Notes under the pieces: generated by a model | Told to the model about the DNA's origin: nothing | The model's database searches: none | What the model saw: the letters and a program-made list of their open reading frames with translations, nothing else | Translations under genes and position numbers: made by a program | NCBI GenBank assembly: GCA_949283205.1 | Contig: CASDSD010000041.1 | Span: forward strand, 1 to 64,000 | Source of the DNA: an uncultured Alistipes sp. | Lineage (GTDB): Bacteria > Bacteroidota > Bacteroidia > Bacteroidales > Rikenellaceae | Reading direction: 5' to 3' | Length of the DNA: 64,000 nt | Part shown: positions 8,686 through 11,799 of the stretch, piece by piece | Position numbering within the stretch: the stretch's first letter is position 1 | Layout: the number at the start of each line of letters is the position of its first letter

Positions 8686-8708
8686 ATCCCCGCAGGGAGA
8701 ATTCCGGC

Positions 8709-8732
8709 GGGGCGTCGTCACGGCGGCGCCCC
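8709..8732 (+). terminator. Possible terminator after slyD
   Basis: A short GC-rich stem (GGGGCG with CGCCCC) 23 nt after the slyD stop is followed by a weak T-containing stretch (GTCGTTTCG). It is suggestive only. Confidence 0.35.
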
Positions 8733-8752
8733 GTCGTTTCGTTACGCACGCG

Positions 8753-9916
8753 ATGATAACCATAGCAGACATAGTCGACACGCTCGGCAACAACCACATC
8801 CTCTGGCGCACGCTGTGCGGGGTGGAGATCCCCGTGCGCGACGGACGCCCGCTCTATACGGTGGGCAACGCCGCCGTCAGCCTCCGCGTGCGACATGAGG
8901 GACGCGACGCCGTGCTAAAATGCTACACGCACCCGAACGACAACCTGCAGGCGATATACGGCACGAGCTTCCACCCGCGCGAATTGTGCGTCTTCGGCAT
9001 GGACGGGCGGAGGCAATGGGTCGACTGTCTGCTGTGCGAGCATATCGAGGGCGAGACGCTCGACGCCTTCCTGTGTGGTCAGGATGCCCGGCGACATGTC
9101 GGGGCGGCCGCCAGCGCCTTCGACACGGCGGCCCTGCGCCTGCTGCGTTCGGAACGCGCACACGGCGACCTGAAGCCCGAGAACATGATCTTCACGCCGC
9201 ACGGCACCATCGAGTTCATAGACTGGGACTCGGCATACGTACCGCTGCTGGAGGGACGCACGGCGCCCGAGACGGGGACCGCCGCATACCAGCATCCGGC
9301 ACGCACGGCGGAGATGTTCGACAAGCATATAGACGACTACCCCATAGCGCTCATCTCGGTCATGCTGCACGCCGCGGCCCTCGACCCCGCCGTTCTGGAA
9401 CGCTACCGCACGCTGCGCGAGTTCCCGCTCCACCCGCGGCGCATCGCCGCAGGCGAAACGGCCGCAGTGACGCATACGGCAGATCTCTTCGCCGCACGCG
9501 GCATGGCGGCGCAATACCGCATGGCACGCATGCTCACGGCGCCGACGCCATATCTCTTCTCCCTGGAGACGACGCTGGAAGCGGCCTGCCGCGCACGGGA
9601 TGCAGCGGTGCCGCCCGACGCGGAGATGCCCGAGCTCGACCAACAGGACGGGCTGTGGGGATACCGTCTGCATGGCGAATGGGTCGTCCCGCCGCTCTAC
9701 GACTGGGGCTTCGAGCCTACGGAGGGCACGATGCTCGTGGGCCTGGGAGGATACAGCCACTTCATCCTCCGCGACGGTCGCGTCATCGTCTCCTTTCCGC
9801 GCGGCTGTACGGTCAAGCCCCTGCGTGACGGCCGCACCGTGGTGCGCGGAGCCGACGGCAGCTGCCGCACGTTCGATTTGGCCTCCGTTTGGGGCGGCGG
9901 CAGCGACAAGGGTTGA
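8753..9916 (+). CDS. Protein kinase-like protein with C-terminal WG-like repeats
   Basis: A 387-residue protein with a eukaryotic-like/APH-type kinase fold. Lys56 sits in AVLKCY at the ATP-anchoring position. The catalytic loop HGDLKPENMIF (137-147) has Asp139 and Asn144, and FIDWDSAY (155-162) takes the DFG position, so it looks catalytically competent. The last about 90 residues (GLWGYRLHGEWVVPPLYDW and following) resemble degenerate WG beta repeats. The ATG at 8753 is used because the upstream extension is only the out-of-frame translation of the slyD tail. It is followed by a vWA gene and a kinase-dead relative with WG repeats, making a three-gene set; its targets are unknown. Confidence 0.8.
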   Translation: MITIADIVDTLGNNHILWRTLCGVEIPVRDGRPLYTVGNAAVSLRVRHEGRDAVLKCYTHPNDNLQAIYGTSFHPRELCVFGMDGRRQWVDCLLCEHIEGETLDAFLCGQDARRHVGAAASAFDTAALRLLRSERAHGDLKPENMIFTPHGTIEFIDWDSAYVPLLEGRTAPETGTAAYQHPARTAEMFDKHIDDYPIALISVMLHAAALDPAVLERYRTLREFPLHPRRIAAGETAAVTHTADLFAARGMAAQYRMARMLTAPTPYLFSLETTLEAACRARDAAVPPDAEMPELDQQDGLWGYRLHGEWVVPPLYDWGFEPTEGTMLVGLGGYSHFILRDGRVIVSFPRGCTVKPLRDGRTVVRGADGSCRTFDLASVWGGGSDKG

Positions 9917-9943
9917 TTAATTCGGCCAAAAGACATATCTTTG
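9913..9943 (+). promoter_or_regulatory. Promoter of the vWA gene
   Basis: A TTG at 9913-9915, overlapping the kinase stop codon, lies 20 nt before a perfect -7 box TATCTTTG (9936-9943). The expected start is about 23 nt before the vWA ATG. The vWA and pseudokinase genes can therefore be transcribed separately from the kinase gene. Confidence 0.75.
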
Positions 9944-9970
9944 TTGAGATAAACCCGCCGACGCAGAACA

Positions 9971-10825
9971 ATGTACTCGCAGGAGATCACACGCCGCCAC
10001 CGCACGGCCTTCGTCATAGCCATCGACCAGTCGGGCTCGATGCAGGAGAAGGTGCGCTTCGGCCGCCACGAGATGTCGAAGGCTGCCGCCGTGGCCCGCA
10101 TAACCAATTCGCTGCTCACGGAGCTGGTCGACCGCTCGCGCCGCACGGACGGCGTGCGCAACTACTACGACGTGGCAGTGGTCGGATACTCGGGCGACGA
10201 GGCCTCGATGCTGCTCGACGAGGATGGCTTCGTCGCCATAGACCGCCTGGCGCGCCGGCAGCCGCAAACCGAAACGCTCTATTCGGAGGAGACGCTGCCC
10301 GACGGCAGCGCCATGCTCGCCGGCCACACCGTACAGCAGTGGCTGCTGCCGAAGGCCGCAGGCAAAACCCCGATGTACGAGGCGCTGCTGCGTGTGCGCG
10401 ACCTGCTTGCCGTGTGGTGCGCCCGCGACGAGAACCGCGCCAGCTTCCCGCCCGTGGCGATAAACATCACCGACGGCGAGGCCTCCGACTGCACCGACGA
10501 CGAGCTGCGCAGAGTGTGCGCCCAGATACGGCGTCTCGGCACGGACGACGGCACCGCGCTGCTCTTCAACATACACATCTCGACCGACCGCACATCCCCC
10601 GCGATGGTATTCCCCATGCCCGACGAGATCGCCCGCGCAAACCCCTACGCACGGCTGCTGGCCGAGTGTTCGAGCATCATGCCCGAGCCCTTCGACGAGG
10701 CGGTGCGTGAATTCAAGGGCGCAGGCGCCGTGCCTCCGTTCTACGGCATGGGATACAACACCTCGATAATAGAGCTGCTGTCGATCATAAACATCGGCTC
10801 GCGCAGCATAACGAACATAGAGTAA
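9971..10825 (+). CDS. von Willebrand factor A domain protein (TerY-like)
   Basis: Cytosolic vWA protein of 284 residues with no signal peptide. A complete MIDAS begins with DQSGSM (Asp19, Ser21, Ser23) in FVIAIDQSGSMQ; later MIDAS parts are TPMYEAL and NITDGEASD. Stand-alone vWA proteins of this kind (TerY family) are known from TerY-P type gene sets, together with protein kinases and phosphatases in stress and tellurite-resistance contexts. Here it sits between a kinase and a pseudokinase; the following gene starts 8 nt after its stop, so those two are surely co-transcribed. It may act as a metal-dependent scaffold for the kinases; this role is an inference. Confidence 0.85.
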   Translation: MYSQEITRRHRTAFVIAIDQSGSMQEKVRFGRHEMSKAAAVARITNSLLTELVDRSRRTDGVRNYYDVAVVGYSGDEASMLLDEDGFVAIDRLARRQPQTETLYSEETLPDGSAMLAGHTVQQWLLPKAAGKTPMYEALLRVRDLLAVWCARDENRASFPPVAINITDGEASDCTDDELRRVCAQIRRLGTDDGTALLFNIHISTDRTSPAMVFPMPDEIARANPYARLLAECSSIMPEPFDEAVREFKGAGAVPPFYGMGYNTSIIELLSIINIGSRSITNIE

Positions 10826-10833
10826 GCAGACCC

Positions 10834-11799
10834 ATGACGGCCACCATCTCCGACCTGCGCCGATCGCTCGGCTCCCCCGCCACACGCTTCCGCCGCCTGG
10901 GCAAGGCCGTGTGCGAGGGCGGCATATCCCGCACCTCCTATTTCGCCGAGACGCGCATACGCCTCGGGGCGAAGGCCTTCACGCTCTTCATGCCCCTGTC
11001 GGGCAACGCCATGATGCGGGTGGAGCGGTTCGCGCCCCTGCGCCGCCACCTCGTATCGCCTGCGGTGCCGCAAATGGAGATCCTCTGTGACGAGATGTCG
11101 TACGAGGATGCCCTCGGACGGCGCTCGGAGTGCGACATCCTCATCGAGGCGCTGCCCGAGGGACGTCCCTTCGGGGATGCCGTCGCCGCGGTCTGCGACG
11201 GCGGCGATGCCGCCGCCCTTGTCGCCGCGATAGATGCTCTGGAACGCGAATTGCACCGTGCCGGAGTCTCGCACAACAACCTGCGGGCGGAGAACATCCT
11301 CATCGACGACGACGGCGCACTATTTCCCATACGGTGGATATATGCCACCGCCGGTGCCGGAGGCGACGCCAAGGCCCTGGAGGCATTGCGCGCGCAGGTG
11401 AAAACCATGGCCGCGGCCGCCGCGGCAGAGCAGGCGTCGTTCGACCCCTACGCCTCCCCGATCGAGGGGACATACGGGGCAGGAGCGCTGTCGGAGGGCC
11501 TCGCCCCCGTAGAGACGGAGCAGGGATGGGGTTTCGTCGATGCCACGGGGCGTATCGTGATAGAGCCCCGCTACATGTGGGTGAACGGCTTCCGCGAAGG
11601 GCGCGCCGAGGTGCAGACGCTCGACGGCATGGGCCTTATCGACAAGCAGGGACGATACGTCATCGAGCCCCGATACGATATCGTCGACTACGACCCGACA
11701 ACGGGAAACTCGCAGGTGCGGCTGGGCGACGAGTGGGCGCTGTTCGACTACTCGGGACGGCAGGTGGTGCCCTTCGCCTCCATGCAGCCCGCATTGTAA
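10834..11799 (+). CDS. Pseudokinase-like protein with C-terminal WG repeats
   Basis: A 321-residue protein. The segment HNNLRAENILI (147-157) matches the kinase catalytic loop HxDLxxEN, but the catalytic Asp is Asn149, and the DFG region reads FPIRWIY with no metal-binding Asp. The N-terminal lobe is recognisable only weakly (ILIEALPEG as a hinge). Residues about 215-315 hold three WG-type repeats (GWGFVDATGRIVIEPRY, GLIDKQGRYVIEPRY, EWALFDYSGRQVVP). It looks like a degenerate partner of the kinase two genes upstream, retaining the WG module. An enzymatic role is unlikely; regulation or scaffolding is an inference. It is 8 nt downstream of the vWA gene. Confidence 0.72.
   Translation: MTATISDLRRSLGSPATRFRRLGKAVCEGGISRTSYFAETRIRLGAKAFTLFMPLSGNAMMRVERFAPLRRHLVSPAVPQMEILCDEMSYEDALGRRSECDILIEALPEGRPFGDAVAAVCDGGDAAALVAAIDALERELHRAGVSHNNLRAENILIDDDGALFPIRWIYATAGAGGDAKALEALRAQVKTMAAAAAAEQASFDPYASPIEGTYGAGALSEGLAPVETEQGWGFVDATGRIVIEPRYMWVNGFREGRAEVQTLDGMGLIDKQGRYVIEPRYDIVDYDPTTGNSQVRLGDEWALFDYSGRQVVPFASMQPAL

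Follow-up and report, generated by a model that had tools for sequence, protein, structure and literature searches.

TerY-P systems, in the excerpts of two reports that describe them (PMC11090510, PMC7699616), combine a vWA protein and a PP2C phosphatase with a kinase that carries a C-terminal zinc ribbon or, in stand-alone defense systems, an OB fold. The same excerpts describe TerY-P-like systems with a kinase-OB protein as acting against T7-like phages (PMC7699616, PMC11090510). In the prophage module KKP, inhibition of a phosphatase triggers the toxicity of a kinase, as the excerpted account has it (PMC11341870). Here we analyze a three-gene set that shares features with both and encodes, on one strand, an active-looking kinase (387 amino acids), a vWA protein (284 amino acids), and a pseudokinase (321 amino acids). 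This triad lies in a 64,000-nucleotide stretch of DNA from an uncultured Alistipes sp. (the window; contig CASDSD010000041.1, positions 1 to 64,000), whose genome assembly comprises 2.39 Mb in 50 contigs. Our literature search returned no paper joining TerY, vWA, kinase, and PP2C and, by title among the matches listed, nothing on a kinase-vWA-pseudokinase triad.

Like TerY-P, the triad is a three-gene set with a vWA protein of the same family and a related kinase, as judged by PADLOC models and trees. Unlike TerY-P, its locus has no PP2C gene and a pseudokinase gene in its place, its kinase tail is WG-like, with zinc ribbon and OB fold unmatched in the window, and it is near-universal in its family rather than an island. 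The triad resembles KKP in having two kinase-like proteins per module, and differs from it in that KKP, in the same excerpted source (PMC11341870), is carried by prophages and joins two kinases with a phosphatase, whereas here one kinase is dead, the phosphatase is absent at the locus, a vWA protein is present, and the setting is chromosomal. From sequence comparisons we consider it very probable that the triad descends from a TerY-P phosphorylation module, and a predicted dead kinase paralogue immediately follows the vWA gene, in the position held by PP2C at TerY-P-type loci. Because it has neither a PP2C nor a recognized zinc ribbon or OB fold, we file the triad as a TerY-P-derived variant and not as TerY-P itself. 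In all counts below, the family was taken as Rikenellaceae and the genus is that of the window; loci of relatives were read as six-frame open reading frames (ORFs) and with profiles.

Results

The vWA protein and its neighbors outside the family

The PADLOC model TerY (PDLC02224) matched residues 2-279 of the vWA protein with an E-value of 1.6e-46. An earlier note on this DNA had described the protein as carrying a complete metal ion-dependent adhesion site (MIDAS), and all five of the residues concerned were conserved in 36 aligned rows: S21, S23, and D168 were invariant, and D19 and T133 were kept in at least 90%. The vWA profile matched 10 of 393 genomes of the order, six of them outside the family, and 18 of 395 genomes of the phylum, including the window's own; all six order loci and ten of the 17 other phylum loci were fetched. 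A PP2C gene stood beside the vWA gene in 6/6 order loci and in 8/10 phylum loci, where it was detected with a profile built from the six order PP2Cs, and in all 14 cases it was directly 3' of the vWA gene. A kinase was found at four of the six order loci and in eight of the ten phylum stretches. When five of the order PP2Cs were compared with the PADLOC PP2C model (that of L119 was left out), four matched at 1.2e-9 to 7.7e-23 and that of L117 did not, and the three order kinases given to PADLOC matched STK_OB at 1.3e-64 to 2e-34. The earlier note had left a choice between a TerY-P variant and a separate system, and the occurrence of the same vWA family in TerY-P-type loci with PP2C outside the family (14/16) favors the former.

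The six order loci (L117-L122) belong to other Bacteroidales families. Their vWA proteins are of the same family as that of the triad, and kinases are present in L118, L120, L121, and L122, with LRR_5 (L118) and Sel1 (L120) repeat tails; L117 and L119 had no kinase within the stretch examined. Unlike the triad, these loci carry PP2C and gave no pseudokinase match. In trees, family and outside vWA proteins parted on a single branch (support 100/99), and the outside kinases fell on one side of the kinase tree (98/94); the family kinases did not group as a single clade opposite these.

The earlier note's statement that no phosphatase is present held at the level of the locus. A profile of all 14 PP2Cs, applied to ORFs of at least 90-100 codons at E<=10, found none in the window or in 85 genus and family loci, some of which are short stretches.

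Some outside loci had further features. In L120 the N-terminal part of the vWA protein is a DarT domain (1.4e-35), and another DarT domain is encoded in a gene adjoining the L117 set (1.5e-22). DUF6939 genes precede the vWA gene in L120 (9.4e-78) and L118 (3.4e-73), and the N-termini of the L118 and L119 vWA proteins look alike by eye. Two kinase ORFs were present in a single TerY-P-type locus in L118 and in L180, which suggests that kinase duplication may be recurrent.

An active-looking kinase and its dead paralogue

PADLOC STK_OB (PDLC02223) matched residues 99-216 of the window kinase (E 9.5e-16), covering only positions 115-235 of the 562 in the model, and the kinase-family profile matched kinases in the PDB at 5e-7. 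The window kinase has the motifs HGDLKPEN (D139, N144) and DWD (D157, D159), which the earlier note had taken as signs of activity, and Lys56 in LKCY. In an alignment of 35 genus kinases, one of which (L097_o1) is probably a generic kinase and not an orthologue, D139, N144, D157, and the catalytic-loop His were kept in every row and D159 in 34. HxD, Asn, and DxD were also present in 36/36 further rows, of which 29 represent other genera of the family, two the genus, and five lineages outside the family. The first gene product thus appears, from its residues, to be an active kinase. The beta-3 Lys is replaced by Arg in 11/35 genus kinases, in which catalytic-loop and DFG residues are unchanged, and the activity of those kinases is less sure as a result.

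The WG-like tail that the earlier note gave to this kinase stood only in part. In the window the tail fell below the Pfam WG cut-off (E 0.049); WG-like repeats were evident by eye in the tails of many relatives, and the tail of a kinase from another genus (L123) matched at 1.7e-36. Neither a zinc ribbon nor an OB fold had a Pfam match in the window kinase, and by its sequence a diverged OB fold is possible. The kinase tail of L049 is out of frame.

In the third protein, the column of the catalytic Asp holds Asn149 and that of the DFG Asp holds Arg167. These changes, read earlier from the window alone, proved general: among the 35 readable genus pseudokinases (36 rows, one unreadable), the catalytic-Asp column held N in 31, A in two, G in one, and R in one, and the DFG-Asp column held R in 32 and A, H, and C in one each. 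The catalytic Asp, the DFG Asp, and the beta-3 Lys were each kept in 0/35. Two other columns were conserved, the alpha-C Glu in 34/36 and the catalytic-loop Asn in 31/36. That Asn and Arg are themselves conserved in the dead site speaks for a retained non-catalytic role. We examined 28 further candidates, of which 27 could be aligned (25 non-genus, two genus; L124_o19 remained unaligned). HxD was present in 0/26 rows that reach the catalytic loop, and the site was dead in 24/24 readable non-genus pseudokinases (25 rows). The beta-3 Lys was kept in 9/25 non-genus rows.

That the third protein is kinase-like, as the earlier note held, was upheld by profile comparison and by trees. Genus kinase and pseudokinase profiles matched each other in hhalign at 4e-25 with tails and at 5e-20 for the domains alone, and pseudokinase profiles matched PDB kinases at 3.8e-7 and 1.3e-4. 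Genus kinases and pseudokinases split cleanly in a tree, and in a tree with non-genus and outside kinases the pseudokinases formed one clade (100/99). By these sequence comparisons, we conclude that the kinase and the pseudokinase are paralogues. The genus pseudokinase domain could be aligned to kinases only up to the DFG position, and its lower C-lobe is, as far as alignment can tell, missing or changed beyond recognition. Non-genus pseudokinases aligned to kinases across the whole domain (250 columns, 1e-37). The full-length alignment outside the genus and the Lys kept there in some rows, set against the absence of both within it, suggest a stepwise decay in which the catalytic and DFG Asp seem to have been lost first, in every genus examined, and the beta-3 Lys and lower C-lobe later, in the window's genus. 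Of the three clear WG repeats previously noted in the pseudokinase, Pfam WG_beta_rep recovered two (E 3.9e-16) and the third is degenerate. An in-frame stop breaks the pseudokinase of L052 (genome G010).

Distribution and gene order in the family

With the single vWA protein as query, we found relatives in 34 of 61 genomes, all of the genus. The vWA profile reached much further and matched 183/200 family genomes, 22/22 genera, and 103 of the 109 good-quality genomes, nearly always with one copy. The kinase-domain profile matched 185/200 family genomes and the pseudokinase-domain profile 180/200, each count being an upper figure because the two profiles cross-match.

The tightest linkage in the triad is that of the vWA and pseudokinase genes. 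Within the genus, the pseudokinase lies directly downstream of the vWA gene in 32/37 loci (L048 ends inside the vWA gene), and in 25/38 a co-oriented kinase gene precedes the vWA gene by no more than about 2.2 kb. In thirteen of these 25 linked loci (L056-L062, L064, L066-L069, L154) the kinase and vWA genes stand about 2 kb apart, and the interval, where read, holds an ORF of about 570-580 amino acids. A PP2C was the expected identity of this extra gene, but the two copies scanned (L058 and L061) matched DUF4954/DUF6819. In a second clade of the genus, those genes upstream of the vWA gene that were inspected looked unrelated by eye. Among 31 non-genus family loci fetched, 28 had the vWA gene; a kinase-like gene was directly 3' of it in 26/28, and a kinase was upstream within 1.7 kb in 25/28. 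For eight of the 26 non-genus downstream genes the kinase profile gave a higher score than the pseudokinase profile, and scores were low for L141 (17) and L124 (30). With such mixed scores, the pseudokinase call in non-genus loci is based on gene position, on the tree, and, for loci other than L124 and L141, on the dead site.

The order is therefore conserved beyond the genus, a point that the earlier note had proposed to check. Separation of the genes, which it had named as the contrary outcome if it prevailed in relatives, was found in part: across genera the genes are mostly linked, and within the genus the kinase stands apart in 13/38 loci. As the loci compare, the order kinase-vWA-pseudokinase appears to go back to the ancestor of the family and to have become looser in the genus, and the triad was apparently inherited vertically within the family.

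Gene layout and expression signals in the window

The three genes, called as adjacent in the earlier note, were all recovered as ORFs on one strand (Table 1). They are flanked by an FKBP (slyD-like) gene before and a putatively trxB-like gene after. This neighborhood is kept in most fetched relatives from the window's part of the genus, and the setting is chromosomal, with housekeeping neighbors. Apart from the WG repeats of the pseudokinase, Pfam was weak on the triad proteins.

Table 1. Features of the triad locus in window coordinates.
Feature	Coordinates	Strand	Remarks
Terminator-like hairpin	8705..8736	+	between FKBP (slyD-like) gene and kinase; 14-pair stem
Protein kinase, STK of TerY-P type	8753..9916	+	domain ~1-285, WG-like tail ~293-380
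Promoter motif TTG-N20-TATCTTTG for vWA-pseudokinase pair	9913..9943	+	in kinase-vWA gap; overlaps kinase stop codon
vWA protein, TerY type, MIDAS residues	9971..10825	+	PADLOC TerY 1.6e-46
Pseudokinase	10834..11799	+	kinase-like domain ~1-205, WG repeats ~223-315; hhalign, WG_beta_rep

Bacteroidota promoters follow a -33/-7 consensus. TTG-N18-22-TANNTTTG occurred eight times in the window, compared with a mean of 0.33 in simulated sequence, and the spacer was exactly 20 in the kinase-vWA gap of the window and in 8/8 related gaps examined. This fixed spacing supports the putative separate promoter that the earlier note had assigned to the vWA-pseudokinase pair. Upstream of the kinase, the same class of motif was absent in 6/8 relatives, within a few hundred bases, and near the window kinase. 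The hairpin before the kinase has 11 G-C among its pairs, is followed by TTTCGTTACG, and leaves 16 bases between its end and the kinase start. Judged by eye and without a shuffled control, compact hairpins were present in the slyD-kinase gap of 7/8 relatives folded; L055 has long-range pairing instead.

Discussion

We propose that the triad is a TerY-P derivative in which a pseudokinase sets the output of the kinase, an explanation that we hold as evenly balanced when taken as a whole. The vWA protein, through its MIDAS, would act as an adaptor joining kinase and pseudokinase, and the WG tails would serve as docking surfaces. The pseudokinase, rather than a phosphatase, would set kinase output, most likely by trapping either the kinase itself or the kinase's substrate in a complex that would stay inactive until a signal releases it; that signal might be a metal ion or a ligand bound at the MIDAS. 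A pseudokinase could restrain a kinase through binding, in place of the phosphatase whose inhibition triggers kinase toxicity in KKP. The pseudokinase may perform the phosphatase's job, and we put forward an inhibitory role only tentatively. Somewhat more doubtful is the broadest form of the proposal, namely that the family runs a TerY-P switch without a phosphatase, a dead kinase copy having taken both its place and its job, with restraint in place of hydrolysis and a core regulatory module in place of a defense-type one.

Several observations weigh against this explanation. The vWA and pseudokinase profiles matched without a kinase match in five genomes, two of good quality (G175, G192) and three less complete (G029, G195, G226); in these, the pseudokinase might act independently of the kinase. 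Joint loss speaks for the explanation: six of the 109 good-quality genomes lack the vWA protein, and the pseudokinase match is missing in all six and the kinase match in five, but these are related genomes and not independent events, with no correction for ancestry or incompleteness. Moreover, the cross-matching of the kinase and pseudokinase profiles means that absences of the two are not independent of each other. The kinase does not adjoin the vWA gene in 13/38 genus loci, and among 33 genus kinase tails, six have no WG repeat and three have a short one only. Outside the family, two phylum loci (L175, L181) carry the vWA gene with neither PP2C nor kinase. AlphaFold models were not confident, with a predicted local distance difference test score of 40.5 for the kinase, built from three sequences, and 49.4 for the pseudokinase, built from four. 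In a mirror-tree comparison of 15 genomes with six control genes, values were 0.60 for vWA-kinase, 0.52 for vWA-pseudokinase, and 0.39 for kinase-pseudokinase; the vWA protein reached 0.62 with a neighboring gene (w12860) and control pairs reached up to 0.49. Because the controls reach similar values, we do not use the mirror-tree values as evidence.

In eukaryotes, allosteric pseudokinase partners activate or scaffold kinases. The pseudokinase of the triad might do the same, with the vWA protein linking it to the kinase, which we regard as rather unlikely. Active and dead paralogous kinases share one locus across the family, and the alpha-C Glu and catalytic-loop Asn are kept in the genus as if shape matters, both in line with such a role, but a lower C-lobe that is missing or unrecognizable in the genus would limit a kinase-like dimer, and the kinase is often unlinked.

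It is less probable still that the vWA protein and the pseudokinase form a metal- or ligand-dependent assembly of their own, with the kinase as an occasional partner. Theirs is the tightest link (32/37 genus and 26/28 other loci), they have their own promoter motif, and they persist as a pair in the five genomes without a kinase match. The kinase, however, is upstream in 25/28 loci across genera, and five of the six good-quality genomes without the vWA protein also have no kinase match.

We think it quite improbable that the triad is still an anti-phage defense of the TerY-P kind. TerY-P-like kinase-OB systems counter T7-like phages in the excerpted accounts (PMC7699616, PMC11090510), and DarT occurs on one outside vWA protein and in a protein adjoining another. 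Against this, the vWA gene is present in 183/200 family genomes and is nearly always single-copy, the FKBP-triad-trxB-like neighborhood recurs in most of the relatives fetched from that part of the genus to which the window belongs, and we found no relative of the vWA protein or the kinase in viral contigs. With this wide presence, constant neighbors, and lack of viral relatives, the triad resembles a core gene set more than an island.

An ordinary TerY-P with its PP2C encoded elsewhere in the genome is similarly improbable: PP2C_2 (PF13672) matches somewhere in 30/200 family genomes and, at E<=0.01, misses 5/6 order PP2Cs, but the other 170, the window's genome included, have no PF13672 match, and the sensitive PP2C profile finds none at the loci. 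Because PF13672 misses most of the TerY-P PP2Cs here, we describe the triad as phosphatase-free for the locus only.

The proposal that a pseudokinase sets kinase output in the triad bears on a subject about which, to our knowledge, little is known, the part played by bacterial pseudokinases in kinase circuits. Here a family has kept a pseudokinase gene where its relatives have one for a phosphatase. The triad thus makes it possible to test whether a pseudokinase can stand in for a phosphatase, and whether common gut bacteria have turned a defense-type module into a core gene set.

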